From: a virus
Direction: 5' to 3' (one strand)
Virus record (IMG/VR): IMGVR_UViG_3300048034_000619
Location: 1-26,675 of that record
DNA length: 26,675 bases
Under the pieces are notes generated by a model. The model was not told the DNA's origin and made no database searches. It worked only from the letters and a program-made list of their open reading frames with translations. Positions 6,236-24,272 of this stretch are shown here, one piece after another (position 1 is the first letter of the stretch; each line of letters begins with the position of its first letter). A program made the translations under genes and the position numbers.

Positions 6236-9200
6236 ATGACAATTGATTTTAATGTATCACCATATTACGACGATTTTGAGACTAACGCTAAAGACAAATA
6301 TTATCGTATTTTATTTCGTCCAGCTGTTGCACTTCAAGCTAGGGAACTAACTCAGCTTCAGTCAACTCTTCAAAATCAAATTAGCCAATTTGCAAATCAT
6401 ACTTTCGAAGATGGCGCAATGGTTATTCCTGGGCAAACTGCTTTAGATAAAGAATATGGATTCATTAAAGTTGGTTCTACATTTAGCTCTGCAGATGTAG
6501 AATTATATCGTGCAGAATTCTTAAATCAAACTGTCACTGGTCAAACTACTGGAGTAACTGCTAAAGTAGTTGGCACTCTACCGGTTGTTGGATCAGATCC
6601 AATTACACTGTTTATTAAATATACTTCTTCAGGTACAAATAAAACTACAAAAACTTTTGCTCAAAATGAAGTCGTTGTATCTGGAGCATCTACTCCACGT
6701 TCTGCTCAAATAGAAAATGTCTCGGGTAGTGTAGGATTCGGTTCAGCCGTAACTATTAAACCTGGTGTATATTATGTTAATGGAACATTTGCTTATGTTT
6801 TAAGTCAAACTTTAGTACTTGACAAATATACAAATACACCTTCTTATCGTATTGGACTTACCGTAACGGAAAGTTTAATATCATCTACCGAAGATGCAAA
6901 CCTTACTGATAATGCTACGGGTTCTCCTAACTTTGCTGCACCTGGTGCTAATCGTTATAAGATAGTTCTTACACTTGCAAAACAAGCATTAAATTCTACT
7001 GCTGATCAAAATTTCATAGAATTAATTCGTGTAGAAAATGGTGTTATATCAAAACAAATTAGATCAACTGAGTATTCTGTCCTTGAAGATACTTTTGCTC
7101 GAAGAACTTATGATGAGTCTGGTGATTATACAGTTCGTCCATTTGGTATTGATATAAGGGAACATCTTCTTAGTGGAAATAATAGAGGAGTATATGCATC
7201 AGGATCAGGTGGTGATGATGCTAAATTAGCTATTGGTCTTGAGCCAGGCAAAGCATATGTCCGAGGTTATGAAATTGATACTCTATCAACTACATTTGTA
7301 GATATTGATAAAGCTAGAGATACAGAACAAATTGTTAACTCTGTTACAGCATTTGAGTTAGGTAACTACACTCTTGTTAATACTACAACAAATATTCCTA
7401 ATATTACATCTTATGAAAAATTAGATCTTCGTAGTTCAGCTAATACAGTAATTGGTACAGCTCGGGCCCGTGCATATGAATTACATTCTGGCACACCAGG
7501 AACATCTGGAGCTGTTTATAAATTGTACCTCTTTGATATCCAAATGACTGGATCAAACTTATTTTCAGCTGTAAATCAAATCAATAATGCAGGTTCTACT
7601 GCAGGTGAATACCTTTCAACCACAGTTAAAACTGGTGGCCTTGCAGTACTTTATGCAATTAATAATAATGACTTATTATACCCTCTACCTTATAAGCAAG
7701 TACAAACCATTAGAGATTCAGGTGGAGCAATTGATACTACAATTACAGTTCGCCGTAGATATACAACCACACTTTCTTCTGGCCTAGCTACAGTTACTGC
7801 AGGTTCTGATGAAGCTTTTCAAACACCATACTCTGGTGTAGATTATGTAGTAGCTAATAGTTCAACTGGTACAGTATATGATATGTCTACTGCAGACGGC
7901 ACCGCTGGAGCTACTCGTTTAACAATTGGTGGAACAGGTAGTGTTAACCTTAATATTGATTTAACTGGTGCAGGATTATCTGGAGAAAGTTTAGTTATTA
8001 TTGCAACAGTTATTAAAACAATTGCACAAGAAAAACAAAAAACATTAAATGCTAATTCTACTCTTGATATTGCAAGTCCAAATTCAACAGCTAATAGTCA
8101 TGATTCATTATTAAAAGCTGATATTTACCAATTAGTTTCAATACATGATTCATTAAGTACTTCAACTAATGCTACTACATCTGATTTAAATATTACTTCT
8201 CGCTATGAATTAGATAACGGTCAAAGAGATAACTTTTATGATGTTGGTAGAATTAAATTAAAAGCTGGCATGCCAGCTCCTGTCGGTAGAATTCATGTAG
8301 TATTTGATTATTTTAGCCATGGTGCAGGAGATTATTTCTCAGTTGATTCATATACAGGACAAGTTGGCTATGCTAATATTCCTTCATATGCTTCTTCAAA
8401 TACAACATACGAATTAAGAGATGTTCTAGATTTTCGTCCACGTATAAGAGACGATGGAACATCATTTATAAACGCTGGTGGTGCTAATCAATCTGGTGCA
8501 GCTCTTACAGAAATTGGTAAGATTGCGTCTAATATGATTAAAGATTTCCGTTATTTCCTACCACGTAAAGATAAAATTTATGTAGATAACAAAGGTACTT
8601 TTAAAGTATTAAAAGGTGTATCTGCAGCTAACCCTGCTCGTCCTGCTAATCCAGATGATGGCATGGTAATTTACGACTTAGATATCGGTCCATACACATT
8701 TGATACGAATGATGTAGTACCAATCATGAAAGATAACAAACGATTTACTATGCGTGACATTGGTCGCCTAGAAGGTCGTATTAATAACCTTGAATATTAT
8801 ACATCACTTTCTCTTCTTGAGAAAGAAACTGCTGATGCTCAAATCTTAAACTCATCAAATGTAGATAGATTTAAATCTGGATTTATTGTAGATCCTTTTT
8901 ATGGTCACAATATAGGTAATCCAAAAGACCCAGATTATCATATTTCTATTGATGCAGAAAAAGGTGAAGCAAGACCACAATTCTATGAAGGCAATGTTCG
9001 ATTACAAAATCAAGACACTGCTTCATCAAGTACATTCCAACAAACCGGTGATATGATTTCTCTTCCATATACAGAAGCTGTAATTATAGATCAACCGTTT
9101 GCATCTGGTACAGAAAACGTTAACCCATACGACATCTTCCAATTTATAGGTCAAATTGACCTTACACCATCACAAGATGATTGGAAAGAAACAGAAGTTC

Positions 9201-11527: not shown

Positions 11528-11730
11528 TGAGAGTAAATATTAAAAATCGTCCTGGCTTACAAAGAGATATTAACTCTGGTGCAGTAATAAATACTGATAT
11601 TACTGCTTACCAAAAAGCATTAAATGCTAAGGCGGCGGCAGAACAAAAAGAAAATGAACTTCAAGATATTAAAAATGAAGTACAGGATTTAAAGATTTTA
11701 ATGAACAAAATAATTGAGAGGCTTAGCTAA
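11527..11730 (+). CDS. Small coiled-coil protein between fibre genes
   Basis: A 67-aa protein. The N-terminus is basic (MRVNIKNRPGLQRDINSGAV), and the C-terminal half (about 27-67) is a charged coiled coil with Leu/Ile heptads (ELQDIKNEVQDLKILMNKII). It starts on the last base of the upstream stop (TAATG) and ends with the same overlap into the fibre gene, so the three are translationally coupled. It is probably a small virion or fibre-assembly factor. I see no closer family assignment. Confidence 0.65.
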   Translation: MRVNIKNRPGLQRDINSGAVINTDITAYQKALNAKAAAEQKENELQDIKNEVQDLKILMNKIIERLS

Positions 11731-12923
11731 TGGCTGTGATTTCAACAAATACGTCAGACACTTTTGAGCAATGGAGAGTAAAAACAAATCAAGTTTCTAC
11801 TTTTATAGGCGATAGTGGAACACTTTCAGGTAGGTATACAGCAACAGATGTAGTTGCAGCTTTGAACGAAATTAAAACAACATCGACCTTTGATAATAAA
11901 ATCACTATTGCAGATCAAGTAGTCGATGGAACTACTGAATTAGCTGGTGATGCGGCTATTCTAAAAATTACAGCTGGTAGCGCAGATGTATTAACACTTA
12001 ATCAAACTGGTAATGTAACAGTTGCGGCTGATCTTTCTACTGTAGGAGCTATAAGTGCTGGTACAACACTTGGTGTAACTGGTAATGCTACAATTGGTGG
12101 TACTACTACATCTCAAGGTCAAGTAATTGCAAACGCTGGTATTGACTGTAATGGAACAATTGAAGTATCAAATAATTTAATAGTTGACGGTAATACTCAA
12201 TTAGGTAATCAAACTACTGATACAGTTGATATTCAAGGTAGTGCAGCTATTGCAAATGGACTTGTAGTAAACGGTGCAGTAACTACTCTTAATCAAGGGT
12301 TAACAGTATCTGGTGCTGCTCAGTTTAATAACGCATTTACTATGGGCGATACTCTTACAGTGGCAAATACGTTTAGTGCCAATGGTAATGTTGTACTTGG
12401 TAATTCAACTGCAGCTGATTTAGTTTCATTTGGATCTAGAGTAAATACTGCAATTGTACCTAATGCAAATAATAGTTATACACTAGGGACTAGTTCTCTT
12501 AAATGGAGTACAGTTCATGCAACTACCTTTAGTGGTACTGCAACTACCGCAAACTACGCTGACTTGGCTGAGCTTTATCTTTCTGATTTTGCATATGAAG
12601 CTGGTACTGTAGTAAGAGTCGGTGGTGAATTTGAAATTACTGCTACTGATGGTAATCATAATCATTCTGTACTTGGAGTTATCTCTGCTTATCCAGCATA
12701 CTTAATGAACAATCAACTAGAAAATGGTATTCCAGTCGCCTTGAAAGGACGTGTTCCTGTAAAAGTCGGTGGTACTGTTAAAAAGGGAGATCGTTTAGTA
12801 GGCGCACCTGAAGGTCATGGTGTAGTAGATAATGAGTCACCTCATGGATTTGCGGTAGCTCTTGAAGATTTTAAAGCTACTAAAAAGAATCCTACTGGTA
12901 TAGTAGAAGCCGTTATTCTTTAA
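11730..12923 (+). CDS. Tail fibre-like virion protein with beta-solenoid repeats
   Basis: A 397-aa protein. Residues 1-50 form an N-terminal attachment segment (NTSDTFEQWRVKTNQ, typical of marine phage fibres). Residues about 60-265 are short Thr/Gly/Asn repeats of the form V-x-G-N-x-x-L/I-G, as in trimeric beta-helical fibres. The C-terminal domain from about 274 begins ANYADLAELYLSD and contains VLGVISAYPAYLMN and GRVPVKVGG. I associate that domain with phage fibre C-terminal or autoproteolytic-chaperone-like domains, without certainty. The last gene of the + strand block, it ends head-on against the inverted island; the two stops overlap by four bases. Confidence 0.75.
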   Translation: MAVISTNTSDTFEQWRVKTNQVSTFIGDSGTLSGRYTATDVVAALNEIKTTSTFDNKITIADQVVDGTTELAGDAAILKITAGSADVLTLNQTGNVTVAADLSTVGAISAGTTLGVTGNATIGGTTTSQGQVIANAGIDCNGTIEVSNNLIVDGNTQLGNQTTDTVDIQGSAAIANGLVVNGAVTTLNQGLTVSGAAQFNNAFTMGDTLTVANTFSANGNVVLGNSTAADLVSFGSRVNTAIVPNANNSYTLGTSSLKWSTVHATTFSGTATTANYADLAELYLSDFAYEAGTVVRVGGEFEITATDGNHNHSVLGVISAYPAYLMNNQLENGIPVALKGRVPVKVGGTVKKGDRLVGAPEGHGVVDNESPHGFAVALEDFKATKKNPTGIVEAVIL

Positions 12924-13387
12924 TCATCATTATACAAATATAGATCTAGTGCGCAAGATACTCTTGTGTGAATTGCGGGTCTGACAGAGTGATATAGGTA
13001 ACTAGGAAAAACTAACATGTCTCCTGTTTTTGGTGCATGGTAAGTTGGATCAGTAGTTTTTCTAAATTTCATATCATAACCACGAGCTACATGTGGCCTA
13101 GGATCATAGAAAACTATTTCACCACCTGATTCAGGATTAGATTCTAAATAGATTACCATTGAAGCATGAGCACCAGAATGAGTATGAGTTTCCATACCTA
13201 CATTTTCATAACGGTTAATCCAAGATTTTATTTCATAATCTTTCCAGTCATGTATATTATGACCAGTCCAATCCTGAATAAAGTCATCAAAATAAAAGTA
13301 AGCGTCATCAATTAAAGATTGTGTTACTTTCTTTTGTAGTCCATCCATAACCCATTCATCATCAATAGGTATTATTTCAAACCTCAT
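12920..13387 (-). CDS. 2OG-Fe(II) oxygenase, HTH/PF13759-like (island, last gene)
   Basis: A 155-aa protein from the start at 13387 (MRFEIIPIDDEW). A longer form from 13444 would overlap the upstream gene by 68 bases; the shorter overlaps by 11. Numbered from 13387, the fold markers are H68-T-H70 in THTHSGAHASMVIYL, then S-G-G-E-I-V-F-Y-D-P-R, G-D-M-L-V-F-P-S-Y-L-Y-H133 and R142. This layout (HxH, sugar-phosphate-like DPR, FPSxLxH, distal Arg) is that of the TIGR02466/PF13759 putative 2OG-Fe(II) oxygenases frequent in marine phages. It would use O2 and 2-oxoglutarate to hydroxylate an unknown substrate. It is a paralogue of the gene at 16371-17027. Substrate and role are unknown; context suggests protein or peptide modification. 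Confidence 0.78.
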   Translation of the reverse strand: MRFEIIPIDDEWVMDGLQKKVTQSLIDDAYFYFDDFIQDWTGHNIHDWKDYEIKSWINRYENVGMETHTHSGAHASMVIYLESNPESGGEIVFYDPRPHVARGYDMKFRKTTDPTYHAPKTGDMLVFPSYLYHSVRPAIHTRVSCALDLYLYNDD

Positions 13388-13811
13388 TAATGTCGGATAC
13401 AGAAAATGTGTTCCCAATTTCAGCGTCATAGTATTTTCGGACATCTAGTACCATTCCTTCAGTTGTAAGTTTACCTTTATTGTTTGCACATACTACACTA
13501 ATTATATTATTGTATGTTACACTATCTTTTCTATATGGAACAAAGTAAGGATCCATTGGAAGAAGTTCTGGATCATTTAGAACATCATAAAAGTTTTCAT
13601 TATAGTCTTCCATTATCCAAAAAGCATAGCATATTGCTACCATATAAGATTTTGATGGATAGATCCAGCCAATATCTTTTTCTCTAAAATATCTGATAGC
13701 ATGGAAAGTAATATCTTCTGTGATTTCAATATCAACATCACCTAAGTCATCTTCATAATCTTTATTTAGTTTATGATATAACTTTTGTTTGATCTTCCAT
13801 TCTTGCATCAT
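13377..13811 (-). CDS. Unknown island protein, 144 aa
   Basis: I do not recognise this protein. It starts at MMQEWKIKQKLYHKL, inside the last codons of the upstream radical SAM gene (41-base overlap); GAGTGG lies just before the ATG pair. The N-terminal half is acidic and probably helical (KLNKDYEDDLGDVDIEITED). Residues 55-75 are aromatic (GWIYPSKSYMVAICYAFWIM) but too broken by Lys and Pro to call a membrane helix. The C-terminal third is mixed alpha/beta. There is no metal motif. Its tight coupling with a radical SAM gene and an oxygenase suggests a partner or substrate-recognition protein; that is inference only. Confidence 0.6.
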   Translation of the reverse strand: MMQEWKIKQKLYHKLNKDYEDDLGDVDIEITEDITFHAIRYFREKDIGWIYPSKSYMVAICYAFWIMEDYNENFYDVLNDPELLPMDPYFVPYRKDSVTYNNIISVVCANNKGKLTTEGMVLDVRKYYDAEIGNTFSVSDINEV

Positions 13812-14703
13812 ACCACTCTAGTAAATTTATATAGCCGTTACAGCTATTATCTAAATCTTTAACATATCTATAATGTTCTGTTAGACAGTGACCCATATAC
13901 TTACAATTATTGCAAATATCTGATAAAGTAATTTTTTCTTGATATGCCCATTGTTGATATGAACCGTAACTTGGTAATTCTAAAAAATATTCATTATCAT
14001 TCTTATCAAATTCTAATACACCAAACTTTCCGTTAGGAGTAATATACACATGGTCATCACTAAATGCATTATAAAGTTTATTGTAACTGTCTTCTATATT
14101 AAACAAATTAATAAATTCAAATTTCTTTTCTACATCTGATTCAAGCCATTTAATTACAAAGTCTTCAAAGTCTTTATGAGTTACATTATGAGCATTTGCT
14201 TGATTAGTCGAATAAGGTTTAATTTCTACAGAGGTAATTGATCTAACTATATTTAGATCTTTAATCATCTCATCAACATCCATTTTTAAAACTTCAGGAG
14301 AAGCTAATATGAGCACAGCAATTGGCTTAGTAGATAACAACATATTTTGATATACCAGGTCTGACTTTTCTCTAGCAGCAAAATCATATGATACACTAAG
14401 TGTTATGTTATCTGCTAAGAAACGATCATCAAGCTTTGAAAAATTAGTATTAATGTTAATACTACCACTATAGTGGCTCCTAATAACTGTAAGTATTTTA
14501 TCGTAGTAACTCCTTTTTAATGCTCCTATTTCTCCTCCATATAAGTCTATATGTTCAATTTTATCATACATTCTAACTTCAAATAATAATTCATCTAGTT
14601 TTTCTGGTTTTATCTTTTTTTGATCACCTAATTGTTCTGGTGTAAGATAACAGAAGTCACATCTGAAATTACAAAAATATGATGGATTAATAGAAATATT
14701 CAT
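13771..14703 (-). CDS. Radical SAM protein with reduced SPASM-like C-terminus
   Basis: A 310-aa protein. The radical SAM [4Fe-4S] motif is at the extreme N-terminus: C11-x3-C15-x2-C18 in NPSYFCNFRCDFCYL. An H-I-D-L-Y-G-G-E-I-G segment near 50 is the S-adenosylmethionine GGE motif. The C-terminus carries C264-x2-C267-x5-C273-x14-C288, the pattern of one SPASM auxiliary cluster. I see no Gly-x4-Cys of the first auxiliary cluster, so it probably holds two rather than three clusters. It overlaps the upstream radical SAM gene by four bases (ATGA), and their N-termini are alike (MxxxIxPxxxCNFxCxFC), suggesting duplication. Reaction and substrate are unknown; SPASM relatives mostly modify peptides. 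Confidence 0.88.
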   Translation of the reverse strand: MNISINPSYFCNFRCDFCYLTPEQLGDQKKIKPEKLDELLFEVRMYDKIEHIDLYGGEIGALKRSYYDKILTVIRSHYSGSININTNFSKLDDRFLADNITLSVSYDFAAREKSDLVYQNMLLSTKPIAVLILASPEVLKMDVDEMIKDLNIVRSITSVEIKPYSTNQANAHNVTHKDFEDFVIKWLESDVEKKFEFINLFNIEDSYNKLYNAFSDDHVYITPNGKFGVLEFDKNDNEYFLELPSYGSYQQWAYQEKITLSDICNNCKYMGHCLTEHYRYVKDLDNSCNGYINLLEWYDARMEDQTKVIS

Positions 14704-15749
14704 AATATCTTAAATTGTGCACTTTCATTTTCATAAGGAGTCATTTGTATACCTTCCATATCGTTTGACGCCAAAATAGCTGGTCCTAAAAGTTTCATAT
14801 TATAACAGTGTTCTTCAACCATATTATGTTTCTTAAGATCTTTAATAGTTTTCTTACACCCATTACATATCTGAAACATAGGACAAGTATAACATCCTTT
14901 CTTTAAACTATTTAGTTCAAAAGAATCTGCAAGTGGAGTAGCAAATCCACCATTCATCTCAAAGTCCCAATCAATAGCTTTTTCTTTATCATCTCCAAAA
15001 GCACCACAAGAATAATAGTCTCCTTCTGGCTGTATAGTTCTAATATGAGAATCACAAGTACGTGTAAGAGGACATATTGTAGCTTCTCCACGTAATCTAT
15101 TCATCATTTGTTGTGTATTGTGTTCCCATTCTGCTAAACCAGCTTGCCATATTTTTACATATTGATAATATATTTTGGCCAGCATATATGGTTTATCTTG
15201 TTCTCCAGATGCCATTGCATAATTAACTTTGCATACAACATCCATTTTTTTAGCTAGCTCTACTGTTCTTATTACTGAGTCTTCGTTTTCTTCTGTAATA
15301 ACAGCAATAAACGAAGGTCTATACCCACAATGTTCTAATACAGCATTTGAGCAATTCCAAAAGTCTTCTTCAGTAAATACAGAATAGTCACCTTTAAGTC
15401 TTCCACTTCCATATTGAAATGACGTAGCAATTCCAACTCTTGGATTCTGAAAGACATCCATCCATTTCTTTGGATTCTTATAAAACGGCCAAAGGTTTGT
15501 AGTTAAAGATATATTCGCAGGTAAATTATTGTCATCACAGTACTTAATTATTTCTCTATAGTACTGTGGATCCATCATTAATGGATCACCACCATTTACA
15601 ATAATAGTTTTAGTTTCTGGGAATCTATCTAAAAACTGATATATTTTAATAAGATCTAGCTTTGAAGCTTTATCTTCTACGAGTTTAGTTGAAGAGCAAA
15701 AAGTACATTTAAAATTACATAACTCAGTTGGCTTAATTATTAAATCCAT
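14700..15749 (-). CDS. Radical SAM/SPASM protein
   Basis: A 349-aa protein with C11-x3-C15-x2-C18 (PTELCNFKCTFCSS) at the very N-terminus and a V-N-G-G-D-P-L-M motif near 55 for S-adenosylmethionine binding. The C-terminal third is a SPASM domain: a Cys, then G-D-Y-Y-S-C (the Gly-x4-Cys of auxiliary cluster I), then C-Y-T-C-P-M-F-Q-I-C-N-G-C and a late Cys in EEHCYN. Three iron-sulfur clusters are therefore expected. SPASM enzymes typically modify ribosomal peptides (thioether, C-C crosslinks) or proteins. The start codon lies inside the end of a 37-aa ORF and has no strong ribosome site, so it probably depends on coupled translation. ATGA joins it to the next gene. Confidence 0.9.
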   Translation of the reverse strand: MDLIIKPTELCNFKCTFCSSTKLVEDKASKLDLIKIYQFLDRFPETKTIIVNGGDPLMMDPQYYREIIKYCDDNNLPANISLTTNLWPFYKNPKKWMDVFQNPRVGIATSFQYGSGRLKGDYSVFTEEDFWNCSNAVLEHCGYRPSFIAVITEENEDSVIRTVELAKKMDVVCKVNYAMASGEQDKPYMLAKIYYQYVKIWQAGLAEWEHNTQQMMNRLRGEATICPLTRTCDSHIRTIQPEGDYYSCGAFGDDKEKAIDWDFEMNGGFATPLADSFELNSLKKGCYTCPMFQICNGCKKTIKDLKKHNMVEEHCYNMKLLGPAILASNDMEGIQMTPYENESAQFKIL

Positions 15750-15853
15750 GATATTCCATTTAGTATTCTGGCCGCATGTCTAGGAGAATAATTGTTGATA
15801 CAAATATACTTAACAAGACTACGTCTATAGTGCCAAAGTAATACTTCATCCAT
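15740..15853 (-). CDS. Small ORF, 37 aa, coupled between oxygenase and radical SAM genes
   Basis: Reading the 103-base gap on the - strand gives an open frame that starts on the last base of the upstream oxygenase stop (TAATG at 15855-15851) and ends 10 bases inside the radical SAM gene. It begins MDEVLLWHYRRSLVKYICIN and ends NYSPRHAARILNGISWI. It is basic, with one Cys and several Trp, Tyr and His. The exact fill of an otherwise unexplained gap and stop/start overlaps at both ends argue that it is translated. It could be a short peptide substrate, a leader that couples translation, or a remnant. Nothing identifies its function. Confidence 0.45.
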   Translation of the reverse strand: MDEVLLWHYRRSLVKYICINNYSPRHAARILNGISWI

Positions 15854-16356
15854 TAGTATAGTGCCGGTATCAAATATTCAAATGATAATACTCTTCTTTC
15901 TCCAGTTTTGTGAGCTGCTCTGTGTTCAAAACATTTTTTCTGATTTAGCCAAACAAAATCTCTTCGTTTTGGATATAATGTAAAATGGTAATCATGTGTT
16001 TTAACTTGAATATTATTACCATTGTGTTTTGTATTATCATCTAAATAAATTAGTATATTAGAATTAAATTTATTACTATCTTCAAAATCGTTATGCCATT
16101 CTCGGGATCCATGATCTACACCACTCCACATAGCACAGTCTTTCATTTCAAAATCATCAAATAGTTTAGAAACATAATTATCAGCCAGCCATTTATGAAT
16201 AATTGCTAGATCAAACTCAGCTTCAGGAGCTGTCCATAGATTTTCTGGTTGAGTGCAGTCTACAAAATTAAATTTATCAAATCGATCTATATCTAAGTTA
16301 CTTGGTAATGTTCCATGCCAGTAGCCGTCAATAAAGAACGTCTGCTCGTCAGTCAT
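15853..16356 (-). CDS. 2OG-Fe(II) oxygenase, HxD type
   Basis: A 167-aa protein from the ATG at 16356; the in-frame TTG at 16368 would start inside the TTGGGAA ribosome site. The motif W-S-G-V-D-x5-E-W-H88-N-D90 gives the HxD half of the facial triad. A distal His (H145 or H149 in CFEHRAAHKTGERR) and Arg154/155 would complete the Fe(II) and 2-oxoglutarate site. The family is the double-stranded beta-helix oxygenases similar to prolyl hydroxylases. It is clearly related to the gene at 17307-17819 (same W-x-G-V-D...W-H-x-D block). The substrate is unknown. The stop overlaps the start of the 37-aa ORF. Confidence 0.75.
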   Translation of the reverse strand: MTDEQTFFIDGYWHGTLPSNLDIDRFDKFNFVDCTQPENLWTAPEAEFDLAIIHKWLADNYVSKLFDDFEMKDCAMWSGVDHGSREWHNDFEDSNKFNSNILIYLDDNTKHNGNNIQVKTHDYHFTLYPKRRDFVWLNQKKCFEHRAAHKTGERRVLSFEYLIPALY

Positions 16357-16370
16357 ATTGGTTCCCAAAG

Positions 16371-17027
16371 TTACACCGTATGTTGAGTTCTCTTATTCCT
16401 TAACTCGTCACCTTTATTTACCACTTGTGCATTTACTACAAGTGTAAGTCTTTCTTCATTACCATGATAGTGTGTAACTTCATGCCACAAAAATTGAGGA
16501 GCAATAACAACCATTCCTCGTTTTGACTTGATCTTTTCTAACTTAGACCCACCAAAGTAATAGTTTCTTTGCCACCTAGGATCATACAAAGCTAGTTCTC
16601 CGCCTTCATCTTCTTCTACATCGTTAAAATATATGCAAGCAAAAGCATCATCAGAATAATGTGTATGGGCTCCAAGTCTAAATCCATTCTTCATTAAGTT
16701 AATTTTACAAGAATCTAATTCAACATCAAGAATCATGGTTTCGGTATTTGACTCTGATAATGTATCAATATTGTTATATGCTAAAGCTAAAAAGCCTTTT
16801 TTAACTTCATCAATAAGTTCTGACATCTCAGGGCATTGACCTTCAACAATAGCATCAATAACAATATTCTCATTGCCATCTTGGTATTCAGCATGATCAA
16901 TATCTACATTAGATAAAAAATCTAAATGCTGAGCTCGTAAGAAACTTTCAACTGCTTGAAGTTTTTCTTCACTAATATCTAATTGCTTTTGGTAAATATT
17001 AGTTGGGTATATCTGTTTAATTGCCAT
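16371..17027 (-). CDS. 2OG-Fe(II) oxygenase, TIGR02466/PF13759-like
   Basis: A 218-aa protein. The N-terminus I-Y-P-T-N-I-Y-Q-K-Q-L is the typical family opening (FPTPIY in relatives). The catalytic region reads G-A-H121-T-H123-Y-S-D-D, A-C-I-Y-F-N, G-G-E-L-A-L-Y-D-P-R, G-M-V-V-I-A-P-Q-F-L-W-H182, then R193. It is the full-length paralogue of the gene at 12920. An exact TATAAATA on the - strand lies 33 bases before the ATG (TATTTATA at 17061-17068), so it may have its own late transcript. Hydroxylation of an unknown target is expected. Confidence 0.82.
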   Translation of the reverse strand: MAIKQIYPTNIYQKQLDISEEKLQAVESFLRAQHLDFLSNVDIDHAEYQDGNENIVIDAIVEGQCPEMSELIDEVKKGFLALAYNNIDTLSESNTETMILDVELDSCKINLMKNGFRLGAHTHYSDDAFACIYFNDVEEDEGGELALYDPRWQRNYYFGGSKLEKIKSKRGMVVIAPQFLWHEVTHYHGNEERLTLVVNAQVVNKGDELRNKRTQHTV

Positions 17028-17029
17028 TT

Positions 17030-17335
17030 TTAATTCTCATCATTAGGTTTCTCATACCCATATTTATACACGCACTCTTGTTCATAGTTAGTTTCACTAA
17101 TAGAATCTACACCTTCTATATCACAAATTTGCCTGTTGCAAACACGGATCTCTTCTTTTATCATATTTGCATATGGTTCTAGGTTATCAATCATTTTAAG
17201 ATACATTTCGTATTTATCTTTTACGTCCTGAAAGTCATGCATCTTAGTTATCCATAAGTTATACAACTCGGCTGTAAGATCTCTTTCTTTACATAGAATT
17301 GTTTTCTTATTCAGTACGTCCTGTAGAGTAGTCAA
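17030..17335 (-). CDS. Small helical island protein, 101 aa, probable TTG start
   Basis: I do not recognise this protein. The first codon is TTG at 17335, which follows a strong AGGAGG about 10 bases upstream, inside the end of the preceding oxygenase gene (29-base overlap). The next in-frame ATG (Met32) would remove a third of the protein. It is mostly helix, Lys/Glu-rich and probably coiled coil over residues 1-75. Three Cys (two in CNRQIC, one near the end) and an acidic tail follow. It ends two bases before the next gene. It could be a partner or adaptor; nothing more can be said. Confidence 0.55.
   Translation of the reverse strand: MTTLQDVLNKKTILCKERDLTAELYNLWITKMHDFQDVKDKYEMYLKMIDNLEPYANMIKEEIRVCNRQICDIEGVDSISETNYEQECVYKYGYEKPNDEN
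17061..17068 (-). promoter_or_regulatory. T4-type late promoter inside the island
   Basis: The + strand reads TATTTATA, so the - strand has an exact TATAAATA ending 33 bases before the ATG at 17027. The site is within the 3' end of the 101-aa gene. The spacing equals that of the gp8 promoter at 4879. It would give late expression of the distal half of the island. Confidence 0.6.
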
Positions 17336-17819
17336 AAGAACATATCCTCCTTCTTATTTTTGTATCATTAGCTTTATGCCAAAATCCTCTAAGATTTGAA
17401 ACCATAAAAAGATCACCAGCTATCGGTTGGTACATTGCTGTTTTATCACTATCCCATTTAAAATTAATTTGACCGCCGCTTTCTAAATAAGTATGATCTA
17501 AATAGTATAAGAAAAATACATCATAGTCTTCAAACATATCTGTATGCCAACCTTGATTATCTTTATCTACTCCATCCCATACTAGATACTTATTAAAAAT
17601 AGCTTCAGGCCATTCTGGTAATATATACTTATGATAAAGTGATTGGCCAAATAGGTTTAATTTATTAGCTAAAAGATTATCAATATCTTCTTTACCATTA
17701 TCTCTTGCTCTTTCTTCAGTATTGAGAAGTTTATGGTCGTTAATCTTTATTAAATCTAGGCCGTCAGGCTCATAGAACTTGACGTATCCCTTTGTATATA
17801 TGTCTGAGACATTAAACAT
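17307..17819 (-). CDS. 2OG-Fe(II) oxygenase, HxD type
   Basis: A 170-aa protein. The ATG at 17819 is supported by GGAGGT nine bases upstream, although it overlaps the B12-type radical SAM gene by 64 bases. Catalytic markers: W-D-G-V-D-x5-G-W-H92-T-D94, F-F-L-Y-Y-L, S-G-G-Q-I-N-F, A-G-D-L-F-M-V-S-N, then H148 and the R156-R158 run. The HxD...H triad and distal Arg fit 2-oxoglutarate/Fe(II) oxygenases of the prolyl-hydroxylase class. It is a paralogue of the gene at 15853. The substrate is unknown. Confidence 0.8.
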   Translation of the reverse strand: MFNVSDIYTKGYVKFYEPDGLDLIKINDHKLLNTEERARDNGKEDIDNLLANKLNLFGQSLYHKYILPEWPEAIFNKYLVWDGVDKDNQGWHTDMFEDYDVFFLYYLDHTYLESGGQINFKWDSDKTAMYQPIAGDLFMVSNLRGFWHKANDTKIRRRICSFDYSTGRTE

Positions 17820-19483
17820 TTCTTACTTACCTCCGATATAATATATAGTCTGTTTCTTTCTAAAAATTCATTAATAGTATCCACTCTAAATTTACCACCT
17901 AGCTGTCGGATACTACGGGGCGGAGTGTTAGGATCAAATATATCTTTTATTTCATCTCCTATCTCCTTAAAATCTGATAGATTTATTATAACACAAAACA
18001 CGTGCTTTGTAAACCCCTGAGGTGAAATTAAATCAATAAAAAGTGGATAAAATTTCTGTAGGATATAATTTGCGGCATTATTCATAAACCACATTTCCAT
18101 CATCTCTTCTTCTGTAAAAGAGTAGCATGAACTAATTGTTTTGAAATATGTTTTCTTATTTTTATATAGGCTATTCCAATTATCACTACCATCTTCATCT
18201 ACAATATCACTATAGACTTCCACAGTCTGGATCTCATGCTTATCTTTATATTCTTGTGAGTTTAGCCGTGAATCAGGTAAGAACATATAATCATGTCTAA
18301 ATGATCCCCATGCCTGAAAGTTCCATATAACTTCCATCTCATTGTAAAAGTCTTCAAGAGTAGAACCTGGCATAGCAAGGATAAGTTCTAAAGCTGGTAC
18401 AGGGAATCCATGTTCTTGACATCTTTTATTAATATATCTACTTAACTCTAGTTTATTTTCTGTTGTTAGATCTATCCTATCAGCTAATTTCATTGCTTCT
18501 TCTGAGATACTTTGAATTGACACTGTAGGTACAACTGAAATGTATTCAGTTTCTCCCCACATATCAGTTCCACCTTCTGACTTAGAATGTTTTTCTGGTC
18601 CAGTGCCTACAATATCAAACCAACGATCTATAAGTCTTTTACGTCTATCTAGTGATTTAGATTTCATTGTAGATATATCAGTAAGATTAAAATTGTTTTC
18701 CCAGCCATAAGAAAATATTTCTAGATCTCTATCTTCAAAGGCACCAAAGTTTGCATCAGTTAAATAAGCATCTCTATATCCAGCTTTTTTCATAGCATCA
18801 ATATCTCTTTTTACAATTGAGACATCTTTTTTATAGATCTTAGTATTAATACCTCCACCCCATTCACAAAAGACACATTTATAAGGGCAACCTCTTGTAG
18901 TTTCAATAATAATAAAAGGTTCCATCTTATTATCACGGGCATAGTCTACAGATTCTTTTAAGTATTCTTGGTGATCTTCATATACTGAATAATCTTCTTT
19001 TGCTAGGTCATGAACTCGGCCACCTATAGACCTTAGTTCCCATGCAATCTTATCTGGCTCTAATGTACCTTCAATATAATTGTTAATAAGATCTTCCATA
19101 AATGGTTCACCAGGCTTAGTTGGCTGACAAATAAAATCATATTGTGGTCTAGCTTCTAAGAGTTCTGGTTCATTAGTGCCAATATGTGGACCACCAAGTA
19201 CAAGTATTTTTTCGGGATGATCTTCTTTTATTTGTTTAGATAACCCATCAATAATTGTATAGTTCCAAGCATAAGAACTAAACATAATAATATCAGCTTC
19301 AATTATCTCTTTAATAACTTCATCAAAAGATTCGTACTTATCCCATTTGTAAGGCGCAGGAATCCAGTTAACCTGATTAGCATATTTGCCAAACCGATTA
19401 TAGTAACTCTGTACTATGAGGTATGTCATATTGTTGGCCAAAGACCAATCAGCATGAGGTGGATTAATGAAGGCTATCTGCAT
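17756..19483 (-). CDS. Cobalamin-binding-type radical SAM protein
   Basis: A 575-aa protein. Residues 1-150 look like a Rossmann-type B12-binding domain: IAFINPPHADWSLANN at the start, ADIIMFSSYAWNY, and V-L-G-G-P-H-I-G-T near 95-103. The radical SAM motif follows: T-T-R-G-C199-P-Y-K-C203-V-F-C206-E-W-G-G-G. The CxxxCxxC-E-W-G-G-G form after an N-terminal B12 domain is typical of class B radical SAM enzymes, which methylate unactivated carbon or phosphorus centres or do other B12-assisted chemistry. The last 200 residues are an unassigned helical domain. No DxHxxG is present, as is normal in this class. Without B12 supplied by the host it would be inactive if it follows that class. Confidence 0.85.
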   Translation of the reverse strand: MQIAFINPPHADWSLANNMTYLIVQSYYNRFGKYANQVNWIPAPYKWDKYESFDEVIKEIIEADIIMFSSYAWNYTIIDGLSKQIKEDHPEKILVLGGPHIGTNEPELLEARPQYDFICQPTKPGEPFMEDLINNYIEGTLEPDKIAWELRSIGGRVHDLAKEDYSVYEDHQEYLKESVDYARDNKMEPFIIIETTRGCPYKCVFCEWGGGINTKIYKKDVSIVKRDIDAMKKAGYRDAYLTDANFGAFEDRDLEIFSYGWENNFNLTDISTMKSKSLDRRKRLIDRWFDIVGTGPEKHSKSEGGTDMWGETEYISVVPTVSIQSISEEAMKLADRIDLTTENKLELSRYINKRCQEHGFPVPALELILAMPGSTLEDFYNEMEVIWNFQAWGSFRHDYMFLPDSRLNSQEYKDKHEIQTVEVYSDIVDEDGSDNWNSLYKNKKTYFKTISSCYSFTEEEMMEMWFMNNAANYILQKFYPLFIDLISPQGFTKHVFCVIINLSDFKEIGDEIKDIFDPNTPPRSIRQLGGKFRVDTINEFLERNRLYIISEVSKKCLMSQTYIQRDTSSSMSLTA

Positions 19484-20471
19484 ATCTAAAAGTCGCCTTA
19501 AATACGCATTCGTCCATGTCTTGTTCTATATGCTTATAGTCTTCTTTAATAAAACATGATAATGGACAACGCTGAAAATATTCACATTCAAAACAATTAT
19601 ACTTGTCTAGAAAGTTCTCAACAATAGTAGGACCACCAAGTTCTTCGGTCTGTGCTTCTTTAAGAAATACAGAACCTGAACATCCCTGAGGCTTAGCACC
19701 ATCGGGCATGATAGTAAAAGAGTTGCCTCTAGTACATATCATTTTATTTGCTGGTTTATCATTTACAAAGTGATCCACGTTTAAACACTTAGGATACTTT
19801 TCTACTAATACTTTATAAAATTCAAATAGATCTCTTTCACTTGGCATTAATACTCTTGAAGTAGCTACTGATGGAAGAAAATGATCAAAGTCACATGTAT
19901 AGTTTTGGTACAATGCATCAAAAAGATAATCACCAGCCACTATACGATCTATATTCTGTTTAGTTGCAACTAGGGAAACCATTGTAATACGATCTTGAAA
20001 ATATCTTAAATTGCGTTCAAATAATTTTAGATCGGCTTTACTAAATCTTCCAGCTGGGTCATAACTAATAGAAAAATTCAGATCATTTTGAGCAAGAAAA
20101 TACATTACTTCTGTATATCTTGTAAAGACTAAATTAGTAATAAAATTAAAATGAACTTCTGCATCTGTATTGCTATCAATATAGAGCATAAAGTCATCAT
20201 ATATGTCTAGGAATCCTTTATCAATCCATTCGTCTTGAAAAAGTTCTCCACCCATTAGATGAATTTTATATGCTTGTTTTCTAGGATTGTTGTTAATCCA
20301 ATCAATAATAGGATCTACTTTAGCAATGATCTCTTTACGGCTAGCACCTACTATATTATTATGGTCTTGTGGGCAGAATACACACTTAAGATTACAGTGT
20401 TCAAATAAGCATACTACTATCTCACCATAACCAACAATCTTTGTTTCAATCAAATCATAAATATCATTCAT
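19464..20471 (-). CDS. Radical SAM/SPASM protein
   Basis: A 335-aa protein with C26-x3-C30-x2-C33 (FEHCNLKCVFCPQDH) and an H-L-M-G-G-E-L-F motif near 75 for S-adenosylmethionine. The C-terminal SPASM-like part has M-I-C-T-R-G-N-S-F, P-D-G-A-K-P-Q-G-C and C-F-E-C-E-Y-F-Q-R-C-P-L-S-C plus a final Cys in DECVF, so two auxiliary clusters are likely. The ATG sits on the last base of the upstream stop (TAATG), giving strict coupling to the 379-aa protein. The end overlaps the next gene by 20 bases. Peptide or protein modification is the family tendency; the actual substrate is not known. Confidence 0.88.
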   Translation of the reverse strand: MNDIYDLIETKIVGYGEIVVCLFEHCNLKCVFCPQDHNNIVGASRKEIIAKVDPIIDWINNNPRKQAYKIHLMGGELFQDEWIDKGFLDIYDDFMLYIDSNTDAEVHFNFITNLVFTRYTEVMYFLAQNDLNFSISYDPAGRFSKADLKLFERNLRYFQDRITMVSLVATKQNIDRIVAGDYLFDALYQNYTCDFDHFLPSVATSRVLMPSERDLFEFYKVLVEKYPKCLNVDHFVNDKPANKMICTRGNSFTIMPDGAKPQGCSGSVFLKEAQTEELGGPTIVENFLDKYNCFECEYFQRCPLSCFIKEDYKHIEQDMDECVFKATFRYADSLH

Positions 20472-21610
20472 TACATTATCGCATATTGATCTCTAAAATC
20501 CTTATTACCATCTAATATTGCTTGTACAAAGTAATGATTTACTGTTTCTAAATCAATAGAAAAGAAAGAACCGGCTGAGTGTTTATATTCAGATTCTACT
20601 TTAATAATAGCATCTAACTGCTTATCAGTCATTTCATCGCCTTGGATGTACTCAATAAAATCTAGTTTAGAAATATCAGCATCTATAAATGATAATTGAT
20701 TAGCTTCATCCCAGCTTTCACCCATCATTACAGTAAACTTAGCAAAAGACTGAATATGTTTAGGTGTAAGATTATTAAAATGAATGTTCTTACCAGCAGT
20801 TGGTTTAGCCAAATACGGTGTAGCCCATATGTCTGGGTTCATAAAGATTGTTGGAAACTCAGAATCATCTTCTAAGATTTCATCATAGTTTGTAAAGTCA
20901 TACTCTTTATTTAAATTTAGCTTTGAGGTAAACCTTTTTGTAAGAAGATGAGCAAAGAATGTTTCTTTAAGCTCACCAAGATACTTTTCTAAATCTTTCT
21001 TAATTAACATAGTAAGTACTGATTTTAGTTCTTTTTTCATCTTACCATTTGCTAAGTAAGTTGCTAATAGGAACTCCATACTAATTGATGATTTATTTTC
21101 AGTAATAAATTTTTTACGGTCATCGGCTGATGGTTTGGCAGAGTTATCAAATATCTTACCAAAGTTTTCAATATCAATTTCATATGGGTTATCAGTGTTA
21201 CCATTGTTTGAAACAAATCTAGCTTGGCCAAAGATTTTATGTTTAAAGACCATAGACTCTAAAAGATCAGTAGCTGCAGCTGTATTAGTTTTCTTAAAAA
21301 TTATATTAAACCAAAGAGACATAATTCTTTTAAATGCTTCACCATCACAATAGATGATAATTCGTTTACCTGTTTGGTCTGTTCGATTACCAAGGGTTGT
21401 AAACATATCCATTGAATCTATAAATGCAGTATTTTTTGATCCTAATAAATTCTTAACTTCAAATGAATGAGCAATAAGCACTCCACTTGTAAGTGTATCT
21501 AAATCTTCTGATACTTTATGGCCGTGTTCTTTTGATACCACGACACGATCAGTAAATACATCAATAATATGGTCTGTCGCTACGTATACTTTCTTAAACA
21601 GATGTAGCAT
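20471..21610 (-). CDS. Unknown island protein, 379 aa
   Basis: I do not recognise this protein. ATG at 21610 (MLHLFKKVYVATDH) is chosen because GGAG lies about 7 bases upstream and the overlap with the preceding gene is then 17 bases; an in-frame start at 21646 would overlap by 53. Residues 1-105 look like an alpha/beta domain with strands VYVATDHIIDVF, RVVVSK, GVLIAHSFEV and RIIIYCDGEAF. The rest is mainly helical and charged, with an aromatic block near 250-280. There is one Cys and no signal or membrane segment. It is translated in strict coupling with a SPASM gene, so it may be an essential partner of that enzyme. That is inference. Confidence 0.7.
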   Translation of the reverse strand: MLHLFKKVYVATDHIIDVFTDRVVVSKEHGHKVSEDLDTLTSGVLIAHSFEVKNLLGSKNTAFIDSMDMFTTLGNRTDQTGKRIIIYCDGEAFKRIMSLWFNIIFKKTNTAAATDLLESMVFKHKIFGQARFVSNNGNTDNPYEIDIENFGKIFDNSAKPSADDRKKFITENKSSISMEFLLATYLANGKMKKELKSVLTMLIKKDLEKYLGELKETFFAHLLTKRFTSKLNLNKEYDFTNYDEILEDDSEFPTIFMNPDIWATPYLAKPTAGKNIHFNNLTPKHIQSFAKFTVMMGESWDEANQLSFIDADISKLDFIEYIQGDEMTDKQLDAIIKVESEYKHSAGSFFSIDLETVNHYFVQAILDGNKDFRDQYAIM

Positions 21611-22265
21611 TTTTGTTCTCCTGTATTGCACCAGTAGCGATGCCATGTGTTAATAGAAACATGGGATTATTTTCGTTAGCCCAGTAACTGTATAAATTAT
21701 TTCCTTTGAACATATACTCGTTAAAATAAGACTTGTAATATGTTTTGTGTTCTTCAATAACATTACCATAAAACATAAAGAATCTTTCGTTCTTTAATAA
21801 GCTTACAAAGTTAACTCCTTCAAGTTCTTTTGTACTATCCTCTGGAAATGATGTTACATAATCTTTAAATTCTGGTGACTCAATAGTATATAAGTTGTAA
21901 AGAGAAAGTGAGTCAAGTTTTTTAGCCCATATTTTTAGAATATCTAGATTAGCATCAATAAATTCTTTTTCAACTAATTCAGTTATACCTTTCATTTCAA
22001 GAAGTAATTCTATTACTCTTGTTTCTAAAATTGGAATATTTACTATAAAGTTAGCATGGAGATAAGCTTGTGTCATCTCATCAAACCCTTCTTGAGTAGT
22101 AAACCCAATATCACAAGGTAATTCTAAATTGCCAAGATAAGTTAATAACTTTGAACCCTGTAATTTAGATTCTTCATAATGAATCATATAAAATGTTTCT
22201 TTATCATTAAAAAATAATTTAAGCTCATCTAACTCAATAGGAGCTGTAGTTTCAATCAATGGCAT
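21594..22265 (-). CDS. Unknown island protein, 223 aa, next to the CHxS protein
   Basis: I do not recognise this protein. It is acidic, Leu/Glu/Phe/Tyr-rich and mainly helical, with no metal motif and a single Cys near residue 51. Notable segments: FYMIHYEESKLQGSKLL, GMKGITELVEKEF-like helices near 90-110 and a Tyr/Asn-rich part near 185-200. It starts three bases after the stop of the CHxS-tail protein and overlaps the 379-aa gene by 17 bases. Its fixed place between a presumed substrate and the rest of the island suggests a binding or escort protein. No similarity to HxsD or to RiPP recognition elements is evident by eye. Confidence 0.7.
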   Translation of the reverse strand: MPLIETTAPIELDELKLFFNDKETFYMIHYEESKLQGSKLLTYLGNLELPCDIGFTTQEGFDEMTQAYLHANFIVNIPILETRVIELLLEMKGITELVEKEFIDANLDILKIWAKKLDSLSLYNLYTIESPEFKDYVTSFPEDSTKELEGVNFVSLLKNERFFMFYGNVIEEHKTYYKSYFNEYMFKGNNLYSYWANENNPMFLLTHGIATGAIQENKNATSV

Positions 22266-22268
22266 AAT

Positions 22269-22838
22269 TTATCGTCTCCCTCTTGAACCATGACATGAAG
22301 AATGACATGATGCATGACATATATCAATTTGTACTGTTGCTGTATTACCTCTAGATGCACTATATTGAGCACGTAAATCAGCAAACTTTTGTTCTAATAC
22401 GTTATCATCAATTATTTGGCCTGTTGAAATACTAACTGCTCTAGCTTGTAATGATTGTTGATATGAAGTATTCATGTAAGCAATTCCTGATACATTAGTA
22501 ATAATGCCTGGTGATGCCTGAGTACCAGTATTACCACCAGCACCAGTAACATTTAATAATGCATTTAAATTACGAATTGATGAATAGGATACAACTTCAG
22601 CTTCTAATACATCTTGGATACCTGAGGCATCAATAAGTTCACCGTTATTTTTAATAGAGTTACCATTTACTCCAATAGCTCGGCCCGATGTTGTTCCACC
22701 AAAATATGCTGTACTAAACTGCGAAAATGGAACGTTATTTGTTCCATATGAAATACCTGCATTAGCTGTTGGAGGTACATAATCTGCAAAACGGTTTACT
22801 ACGTTTTGTTCTTCTACTGGGTTAGTTAATGATACCAT
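22269..22838 (-). CDS. Putative modified virion protein with C-terminal Cys-His-Xaa-Ser repeats
   Basis: A 189-aa protein. Residues 1-172 are Gly/Asn/Ser/Thr-rich with no Cys, His or Trp and contain VPFSQFSTAYFGG, a pattern I associate with marine phage fibre-tip or fibre-associated proteins (weak). Residues 174-189 read CHASCHSSCHGSRGRR: three perfect C-H-x-S units followed by a basic end. All Cys and His of the protein are in this run. GAGG lies about 7 bases before the ATG. The gene begins inside the end of a full SPASM radical SAM gene (17-base overlap), with a possible late promoter 89 bases upstream. The likely role is substrate or precursor of radical SAM chemistry, or a metal-binding fibre tip. 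It is partly like HxsA but uses a tetrad, not a triplet. Confidence 0.75.
   Translation of the reverse strand: MVSLTNPVEEQNVVNRFADYVPPTANAGISYGTNNVPFSQFSTAYFGGTTSGRAIGVNGNSIKNNGELIDASGIQDVLEAEVVSYSSIRNLNALLNVTGAGGNTGTQASPGIITNVSGIAYMNTSYQQSLQARAVSISTGQIIDDNVLEQKFADLRAQYSASRGNTATVQIDICHASCHSSCHGSRGRR
22284..22319 (-). repeat. Three 12-bp direct repeats coding for CHxS
   Basis: On the - strand the 36 bases are three units of TGTCAT-NNN-TCA (variable codons GCA, TCT, GGT), coding for CHAS, CHSS and CHGS. The same Cys, His and Ser codons are used in each unit, indicating recent repeat expansion or strong constraint. They sit 15 bases before the stop codon. Confidence 0.9.
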
Positions 22839-23859
22839 TATATTCCTCGTTTAATTCTTTCATTAAAAATCTTGGAGCTCCACAAATATCGCCTTCCCAC
22901 GCCAATTGATGACAGTCTCCTTTACAGTATTTATACACGTTACACTCATAACATCGTGGATCTCTTTGCAATTCTTCCATGATAACATTACATCTTTTTG
23001 GTGCATTTATAACAACTTCAGGAGGTTCCATAATATGACCAAAGGCTGATGTGGGTGCAGAGTTAGGACATCCAGCAATAGATCCATCACCATTTATTGT
23101 AAACAGTTTTTGCTCACAGTCTCTACAGAATGTACCAGCACCTGTATATCCAGTTTCAAATTTAGAATATACATTTTCCATAAACTCATTATCAAACCAA
23201 TTTCTTGCATCATTGTCTTTTATAAACTTATGCATATCAAGAAAGTATTTTTGAAGAGCTAAATTAGATGGAAATACTGGATTGCGTGTTGCATTACCAT
23301 CATAAGTAATACGTTCAAGGGCCATTTCCTGTACACCTAAACTTTTTACATAATGCATTAATTTAGCTGGACCCATTTCAATAGTATCATTTGTAAGTGA
23401 TACAAATAGTTTAATAGTATATCCACGGTCTAATAGTAACTTAACATTTGATTCCCATAAAGCTCTTTGTTTTTCGTTATCAAATCGTATTGTTGGATCC
23501 CATGAAGTACCCATACGTTTTTCACAAACTTCGTCTAAAAATGCTAATCGTTTTTCTGTTAACTTAAGTACAAGGTTAGATGTAATACCATAAGTAGCTG
23601 AACCATTCCATTTTTCTTGAGTCAATTCATAGAATCTCCATAAGTCTTCTACGGGAGCAAGAAAAGGCTCACCTCCGTGAAACTCAAAATGAGTATTCAT
23701 TTGAGGTCTTAAGTCTTTTAATTCATTACACCACTTTGCAACAGCATCAGGATTAAAATAAATTTTAGCTCCGTTTATACCATTTGTAAAGCAGTGGTTA
23801 CAATTGAGATTACATGTCTCCGTCGTTTTGACGTAGATCATAGTATCATTATTTAGCAT
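22822..23859 (-). CDS. Radical SAM/SPASM maturase next to CHxS protein
   Basis: A 345-aa protein with C16-x3-C20-x2-C23 (TTETCNLNCNHCFTNG), H-G-G-E-P-F at 61-66, and a complete SPASM domain. The latter includes Gly-rich G-D-G-S-I-A-G-C, then C303-x2-C306-x5-C312-x3-C316 and C326, implying two auxiliary [4Fe-4S] clusters besides the SAM cluster. This is the architecture of peptide maturases (anSME, sactipeptide, ranthipeptide, HxsB-like). The start at 23859 has AGGA 5-6 bases upstream. A TATAAATA on the - strand lies 34 bases upstream. The stop lies inside the first codons of the CHxS protein gene, a classic maturase-substrate pairing, but activity is not shown by sequence. Confidence 0.9.
   Translation of the reverse strand: MLNNDTMIYVKTTETCNLNCNHCFTNGINGAKIYFNPDAVAKWCNELKDLRPQMNTHFEFHGGEPFLAPVEDLWRFYELTQEKWNGSATYGITSNLVLKLTEKRLAFLDEVCEKRMGTSWDPTIRFDNEKQRALWESNVKLLLDRGYTIKLFVSLTNDTIEMGPAKLMHYVKSLGVQEMALERITYDGNATRNPVFPSNLALQKYFLDMHKFIKDNDARNWFDNEFMENVYSKFETGYTGAGTFCRDCEQKLFTINGDGSIAGCPNSAPTSAFGHIMEPPEVVINAPKRCNVIMEELQRDPRCYECNVYKYCKGDCHQLAWEGDICGAPRFLMKELNEEYNGIIN
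22928..22935 (-). promoter_or_regulatory. Possible T4-type late promoter before the CHxS protein
   Basis: The + strand reads TATTTATA (an exact TATAAATA on the - strand), inside the radical SAM gene and 89 bases before the CHxS start at 22838. The spacing is longer than the 33-41 bases seen elsewhere, so it is less certain. It would give extra copies of the CHxS protein relative to its maturase. Confidence 0.4.
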
Positions 23860-24272
23860 TCAATTCCTATTGATAACATAGTGGAGTCATACATATTTAT
23901 AGCCTCATGAGAAGTGCCAGCTGGAATAGAAATATACTCTCCTGCTTCTATAACATAATGGATATTATCAACAATCATCATTTTTTTACCTTCAATAACA
24001 TATATAAATACGTCTATAGGATCAGTATGCATCGCAAATGATTTAGAATCCTGAGGAGAAATATATAAATGTACGGTATGTTTTTTAGTTATACCAAGCT
24101 TTTGAGTGATACTTTTATACTCATCTTCCAGCCCTTCAATCTTAACTGTAAATTTAGCTTCAGCAATATATCTACTTGTAGACAAAAGAGGGATCTCATG
24201 GTCTCTTCCAATGTCATCAATGTAAAAAGATTTTGAACCTTTATGTAATATGTCGATCATTCTAAAATCCAA
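23853..24272 (-). CDS. Single-domain cupin, first gene of the island
   Basis: A 139-aa protein. Cupin motif 2 is complete: G111-x5-P117-x-G119-x2-H122-x3-N126 (GEYISIPAGTSHEAIN). Motif 1 is partial, with H82-x-D84 and E94-G95 (MHTDPIDVFIYVIEGK). One metal-bound domain is likely (H82, D84, H122). Functions range from isomerase or dioxygenase to ligand sensor; none can be chosen. It overlaps the SPASM maturase by seven bases and is first behind a divergent promoter region, so it may be an enzyme of the pathway or a chaperone. The ribosome site is weak. Confidence 0.75.
   Translation of the reverse strand: MDFRMIDILHKGSKSFYIDDIGRDHEIPLLSTSRYIAEAKFTVKIEGLEDEYKSITQKLGITKKHTVHLYISPQDSKSFAMHTDPIDVFIYVIEGKKMMIVDNIHYVIEAGEYISIPAGTSHEAINMYDSTMLSIGIEC
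23894..23901 (-). promoter_or_regulatory. T4-type late promoter before the SPASM maturase
   Basis: The + strand reads TATTTATA, an exact TATAAATA on the - strand, ending 34 bases before the ATG at 23859. Spacing matches the gp8 and oxygenase sites. It would place maturase and CHxS protein under late (virion-time) control. Confidence 0.65.

Follow-up and report, generated by a model that had tools for sequence, protein, structure and literature searches.

A phage radical-SAM gene cassette that appears to modify the Cys-His-x-Ser tail of a small protein encoded beside fibre genes

We describe a gene set, carried by many ocean and soil phages and by some Bdellovibrionota chromosomes, which appears to modify the near-unchanging Cys-His-x-Ser (CHxS) tail of a small protein, T, encoded beside host-recognition fibre genes. 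It was analysed in the virus record IMGVR_UViG_3300048034_000619, whose complete 26,675 bases are referred to as the window, and the cultured phages Atu_ph07, SURPRISE13/FLC6, Phosso and pPa_SNUABM_DT01 carry the system as well. A conserved cassette, an invariant tail on variable N-terminal domains and linkage to fibre genes can be read from the sequences. We favour, with moderate confidence, an explanation in which the island constitutes a multi-enzyme pathway modifying the C-terminal CHxS tail of T, a fibre-associated virion protein whose tail is probably exposed and ligand-contacting.

The window displays T4-like features, namely late promoters and runs of structural-looking plus-strand genes, and the open end of a frame at positions 1–275 resembles, by eye, a PAAR-type spike tip. 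A minus-strand island of about 15 genes extends from 12,920 to 24,272, with the genes for a cupin, the maturase M and T at its head. The cupin gene occupies 23853–24260 (minus strand; listed from a TTG as 23853–24272, while the family alignment prefers the ATG at 24260), M, a radical SAM/SPASM maturase, 22822–23859 (minus) and T, the proposed substrate, 22269–22838 (minus), within which the codons of the tail CHASCHSSCHGSRGRR and the stop cover 22269–22319 (minus). Cupin and M overlap by 7 bp and M and T by 17 bp, the stop of M falling within the T gene, and in both the overlapping head of the island and the placement of this stop, the coordinates agree with the sequence-only reading of this DNA. 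Further along, all on the minus strand, lie X (21594–22265; phrog_20767; model pLDDT 93.4), the most constant neighbour of T; the conserved protein Y (20471–21646); radical SAM enzyme 1 with SPASM-like C-terminal cysteines (19464–20471; phrog_1802, gene order conserved); an optional B12-binding radical SAM enzyme (17756–19483; domain and profile matches); an optional 2OG-Fe(II) oxygenase-like protein (17307–17819; weak Pfam match below cut-off) and an optional 2OG-Fe(II) oxygenase (16371–17027; PF13640, 29.7 bits, above cut-off), with an optional small protein between the two (17030–17335; cassette comparison); a conserved protein without a Pfam match (15853–16368); radical SAM/SPASM enzyme 2 (14700–15749; profile matches); radical SAM enzyme 3 and a small conserved protein (13771–14703 and 13377–13811; both from cassette comparison); and a further 2OG-Fe(II) oxygenase (12920–13444; PF13759, 51 bits).

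A T4-type late promoter, TATAAATA, is located at 23901–23894 on the minus strand, 34 bp before the ATG of M, precisely where the sequence-only reading had placed it. The motif is not over-represented in the window, with 7 copies seen against 5.8 expected, but five of the seven sit 33–41 bp upstream of a gene start on the correct strand, and this placement renders it a credible T4-type late promoter despite the near-chance count. A second credible late promoter is found in the island at 17061–17068, 33 bp before the 2OG oxygenase gene 16371–17027. As a conserved feature, the promoter before the maturase had to be rejected: none of 100 distinct relatives carries the motif within 80 bp of the maturase gene, so that its position is private to the window. 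In relatives, it occurs before the cupin gene (18 of 81) or before the CHxS gene (32 of 131) in some cases, and it therefore defines no conserved unit.

M contains the CxxxCxxC motif of radical SAM enzymes together with the C-terminal SPASM cysteines (CX2CX5CX3C...C) and scores 27.8 bits against the SPASM model TIGR04085, for which the cut-off is 27. Its residues C16, C20, C23, C248, C264, C303, C306, C312, C316 and C326 are invariant in 42 relatives. SPASM enzymes normally adjoin their substrate gene, and T lies directly 3' of M in 86 of 109 distinct loci, while in others it lies elsewhere on the contig. Among 50 records chosen by their maturase, the triple-CH pattern was found in 31 and the reversed pattern in none; when those of 25 kb or more are counted, the tail is present in 28 of 29. 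Conversely, all 30 large tail-bearing records encode the maturase, including the 19 chosen by the tail alone. The sequence-only reading, which had started from the adjacency of SPASM enzymes and their substrates, named maturases consistently lacking a nearby CHxS protein as the outcome that would speak against it; this outcome was looked for and did not occur. The CHxS protein is thus the constant partner of the maturase, and T is likely its dedicated substrate, a conclusion well supported at the level of sequence. Searching cultured phages by tblastn, we obtained maturase matches in Sinorhizobium phage Phosso, three Burkholderia phages, Agrobacterium phage Atu_ph07 (two records) and Pseudomonas phage pPa_SNUABM_DT01. 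The order cupin–maturase–CHxS is kept in the four cultured-phage loci inspected, and each of their T proteins ends with three CHxS-type repeats followed by RxRR.

Used as a protein query against the phage collection, T gave no matches. Since T is too divergent for such a search, a DNA pattern of the tail was used instead; allowing up to 3 mismatches, this pattern has a single match in the window and none in 100 shuffles. Across 165 distinct T proteins the residues C, H, C, H, C, H, R, R and R are invariant, these nine being fixed by the search pattern itself; independent support for the constancy of the tail comes from the homologue alignment and from the T proteins of cultured phages. The serines of the tail, not specified by the pattern, hardly vary in the same set. 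Pattern matches in Frankia, Pseudoalteromonas, Bordetella and one MAG fragment (loci L211, L212, L218 and L217) do not terminate an open frame and were set aside as chance. Without its tail, T splits into several sequence families with no mutual similarity at the threshold used, the largest having 111 and 41 members; the predicted fold of Atu_ph07 T is nevertheless common with that of the window T. In the model of the latter (pLDDT 85.8), an N-terminal domain of about 170 residues is confidently folded and the tail is disordered. Constancy of a short tail while the attached domains change is what one expects of an enzyme substrate. Solved-structure sequences searched with T, X and Y yielded no convincing relatives, the best match overall, that of T to a homeodomain protein (0.018), being most likely chance, and comparison of the T and X models with PDB folds gave no clear match.

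The most distant phage T (L118, 8105–8878) carries four CHxx repeats, CHSNCHSNCHSNCHTNRSRR, and is accompanied by a diverged maturase. At four loci (L016, L017, L018 and L019, about 9007–9933), a T paralogue combining the T N-terminal domain with Gly_rich_2 and devoid of the CHxS tail is located between maturase and T. Phage-looking contigs have been binned in MAGs assigned to Euryarchaeota (L208), Rickettsiales (L213), Bacteroidetes (L215) and a Rhodobacteraceae bin (L216, L220 and L225).

Of 368 Bdellovibrionota genomes, 9 carry the exact tail and 18, those 9 included, a close maturase; in 17 of these 18, either the exact or a variant tail is present. The variants, found via the maturase and not via the tail pattern, accompany the same cassette in eight of the nine other genomes, with CHGNFPPPCHGSRGRR in four and CHTNVPTPPPCHASRGRR, CHSSHSSHSSHSSRGRR, CHSNHCSHSNHGSRGRR and CHSNCYTPPPKSRSRR in one each; in the ninth genome, about 3 kb separate the maturase from the end of its 28 kb contig, which yielded no tail. 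Two elements are kept by every variant, an initial C-H-x-(S/N) and S-R-x-R-R at the end. Since these alone survive everywhere, the middle cysteines are not the sole reactive residues, and the constant target of M probably lies within the two kept elements. T relatives with the tails HSS x4, HSN/HCS/HSN/HGS, CHGNFPPPCHGS and CHSNCYTPPPKS, all ending RxRR, were noted (L262, 4310–4918; L263, 11562–12170; L257, 4094–4648; L255, 7294–7608). Some Bdellovibrionota cassettes are clearly chromosomal, one residing on a 4.15 Mb contig, and others lie, by inspection, near an apparent gene for ribosomal protein S20 and an apparent cytochrome oxidase operon. At seven loci tested (L227, L228, L229, L257, L258, L259 and L261), a neighbour of the cassette has a Peptidase_S74 chaperone, in most cases with a pilin-type N-terminus bearing a pilin methylation motif; these proteins adjoin the cassette together with a partner protein of about 190 aa and unassigned family. 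They could possibly represent pilus-type fibres.

The cupin exceeds the Pfam cut-offs for both Cupin_2 (39 bits) and JmjC_2 (37 bits), and JmjC_2 matches 36 of 51 family members at E 0.001. The HxD...H iron triad is present, with H78, D80 and H118 invariant in 51 relatives, and the family profile matches human MINA53 at 6e-5. K93, found in 50 of 51 cupins, follows D80 by 13 residues and may correspond to the 2-oxoglutarate-binding lysine, which in JmjC/ribosomal-oxygenase cupins lies 13 residues after the aspartate. The protein is therefore best read, as far as its sequence goes, as a small JmjC/ribosomal-oxygenase-like enzyme. Known members of the JmjC ribosomal-oxygenase family hydroxylate His or Arg, and both residues are among the invariant positions of the T tail.

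The surroundings of the cassette point to the virus particle. Fibre genes sharing one C-terminal module stand directly before the cupin gene in 80 loci or directly before T in 30, and in 112 of 185 loci overall, counted without merging loci by contig; two such fibre genes match Peptidase_G2 weakly, below cut-off. In the window, a tail-fibre-like protein whose C-terminal module aligns with that of the island-adjoining fibre genes of relatives is encoded at 11730–12923 on the plus strand, facing the opposite end of the island. Where T is detached from the cupin–M pair, it stays with the fibre gene: one phage group places two small T genes directly behind the fibre gene, followed by X, and keeps cupin, M and radical SAM enzymes 2–3 as a separate cluster. 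At L068, L069, L151, L170, L216, L220 and L225, two small T genes stand in tandem directly 3' of a fibre gene, and several of these loci continue with further radical-SAM-like proteins whose motifs include CEQACLGC. What counts against our explanation is that the fibre module of the window is absent directly before the cassette in several loci, including those of SURPRISE13, Atu_ph07 and SNUABM_DT01. For Atu_ph07, the gene count starting at gp215, the major capsid protein, identifies T as gp170 (AUZ94952), and in the published proteomics, CDS 170–215 form a virion-protein cluster defined by mass spectrometry (PMC6102473). As gp170 is the first CDS of this cluster, its own detection would follow from the cluster boundary, which supports, indirectly, the presence of T in the virion.

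We propose a model in which T is made, presumably late, and X, as a constant component, may present T or its tail to the enzymes. M and radical SAM enzyme 2, usually together with more radical SAM and 2OG enzymes, would then modify or help to modify the tail, the cupin would hydroxylate it, and the optional enzymes could add variety to its chemistry. T would subsequently join the tail fibre with the altered tail exposed, and this modified tail would most likely be the exposed, ligand-contacting end, touching a receptor or the envelope, perhaps in a metal-bound form. We infer covalent modification of the tail, a position at the fibre tip and a role in adhesion, T being probably receptor-contacting. 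The model can be extended to a host-recognition tip common to bacteriophages and Bdellovibrionota, both of which prey on bacteria, in which a tail of His, Cys, Ser and Arg is rebuilt by up to five radical SAM enzymes and several oxygenases to bind or breach bacterial envelopes; this extension is tentative, and we regard it as possible but doubtful.

The sequence-only reading had proposed a smaller system, with cupin, M and T as a self-sufficient core and the remaining genes as later tailoring steps or separate pathways. The three genes do indeed overlap and head the cassette, and M, T and the cupin are nearly universal. Yet among 30 large records, X (30) and radical SAM enzyme 2 (29) are at least as constant as the cupin (28), with M in 30 and Y in 26. 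In 109 distinct loci, M directly upstream of T (86) and the cupin (77) are both less constant than X, which lies within 2.5 kb downstream of T in 101 of 105. Given this constancy, and since T can be detached from cupin–M, a core of these three genes alone is not supported. We therefore regard a three-gene core as quite unlikely: the comparison of maturase neighbourhoods which that reading had suggested bears out the M–T pair but not the size of the core, and the assignment of the other genes to later steps is not supported, as X and radical SAM enzyme 2 belong to the constant set. By gene content, the core rather comprises T, M, X and radical SAM enzyme 2, with the cupin nearly always present, radical SAM enzymes 1 and 3 and Y common, and the B12 enzyme and 2OG oxygenases optional. 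In the cassette comparison, radical SAM genes were assigned to families by best reference, since iterated profiles merged all of these families.

A different fate of the tail is conceivable, if it were the core of a precursor that is modified, cleaved and released as a small bioactive peptide, i.e. a classical RiPP acting as toxin, metallophore or signal, with the N-terminal domain as an oversized leader. SPASM enzymes beside repeat-tailed substrates are typical of RiPP clusters, one tail is common to several unrelated N-terminal domains, and X or Y, both without assigned function, might be a tail-releasing protease. We nonetheless consider release unlikely, since no peptidase or exporter was recognised in the Pfam-scanned island proteins, the supposed leader, about 170 residues long, is modelled with confidence as a folded domain, and both the fibre linkage and the location of gp170 within the virion-protein cluster tie T to the particle. 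Alternatively, Cys and His of the tail, being metal ligands, could bind a metal or Fe-S cluster noncovalently while the radical SAM enzymes act elsewhere, for instance on a glycan, a nucleotide or another protein of the fibre, in keeping with nearly all recognisable island enzymes being iron enzymes. The near-perfect co-occurrence of M, X and tail argues against such a division of labour, and variant tails without the middle Cys keep the same cassette, unlike a fixed ligand set, which renders this explanation distinctly improbable. Modification of the tail of a retained, fibre-associated T thus remains our preferred explanation.

Marine phages carry many radical SAM genes, which are usually read as auxiliary metabolism (PMC7150976, PMC5332604). 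For such genes, the cassette supplies a concrete substrate, and it directs attention to the virus particle itself. Should this hold, virions carry chemistry installed by radical SAM enzymes, and the same solution has been adopted in bacteria of the predatory phylum Bdellovibrionota. Our literature search, the scope of which excluded preprints and many subscription papers, retrieved no paper describing this system, none joining phages, RiPP precursor peptides and radical SAM enzymes, and none on tail fibres with radical SAM enzymes.

In comparison with known systems, the cassette appears to work like radical-SAM/SPASM peptide maturation, yet neither T nor M reaches the Hxs, CXXX-repeat or PapB cut-offs. 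It is similar to the Hxs system (HxsA/HxsB/HxsC; TIGR03979, TIGR03978, TIGR03977) in combining C-terminal His-x-Ser repeats with radical SAM maturases, and one Bdellovibrionota T relative, ending in the plain His-Xaa-Ser repeat CHSSHSSHSSHSSRGRR, matches HxsA weakly over the repeat. However, each T repeat normally starts with Cys, T ends in RxRR, and the cassette differs by its large extra enzyme set and its phage structural neighbourhood; T of the window gives no HxsA (TIGR03979) match at E 10, the closest relative attains 16 of the 121.65 bits needed, and M, tested for HxsB/HxsC membership, attains 27.4 of 370 bits against HxsB. The CXXX-repeat (TIGR04115) and PapB-type ranthipeptide systems likewise pair a SPASM enzyme with a short-Cys-repeat substrate, while here the repeats form the tail of a folded protein and M stays far below the curated cut-offs (19.5 of 350 bits for TIGR04115, 35.8 of 340 bits for the PapB type); solved relatives of M include the anaerobic sulfatase-maturating enzyme and 5wgg. 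The cupin resembles the JmjC ribosomal oxygenases (YcfD/RoxA, NO66, MINA53; PF08007) in its HxD...H triad, its domain score and its MINA53 match, but is much smaller and encoded in a phage modification cassette. The S74 neighbours in Bdellovibrionota recall the S74 subfamily of the mosaic adhesive trimer (MAT) fibres of Bdellovibrio bacteriovorus, tail-fibre-like proteins with an S74 chaperone which serve prey recognition, and differ from these by their mostly pilin-type N-terminus; a modified tail protein is not described for MAT fibres in the available part of that report (PMC10769870). Finally, a 183 kb T4-like marine genome with 12 radical SAM genes has been discussed in terms of Fe-S-related metabolism, with no substrate or structural link proposed in the available part of the source (PMC5332604), and the cassette presented here offers such a link.
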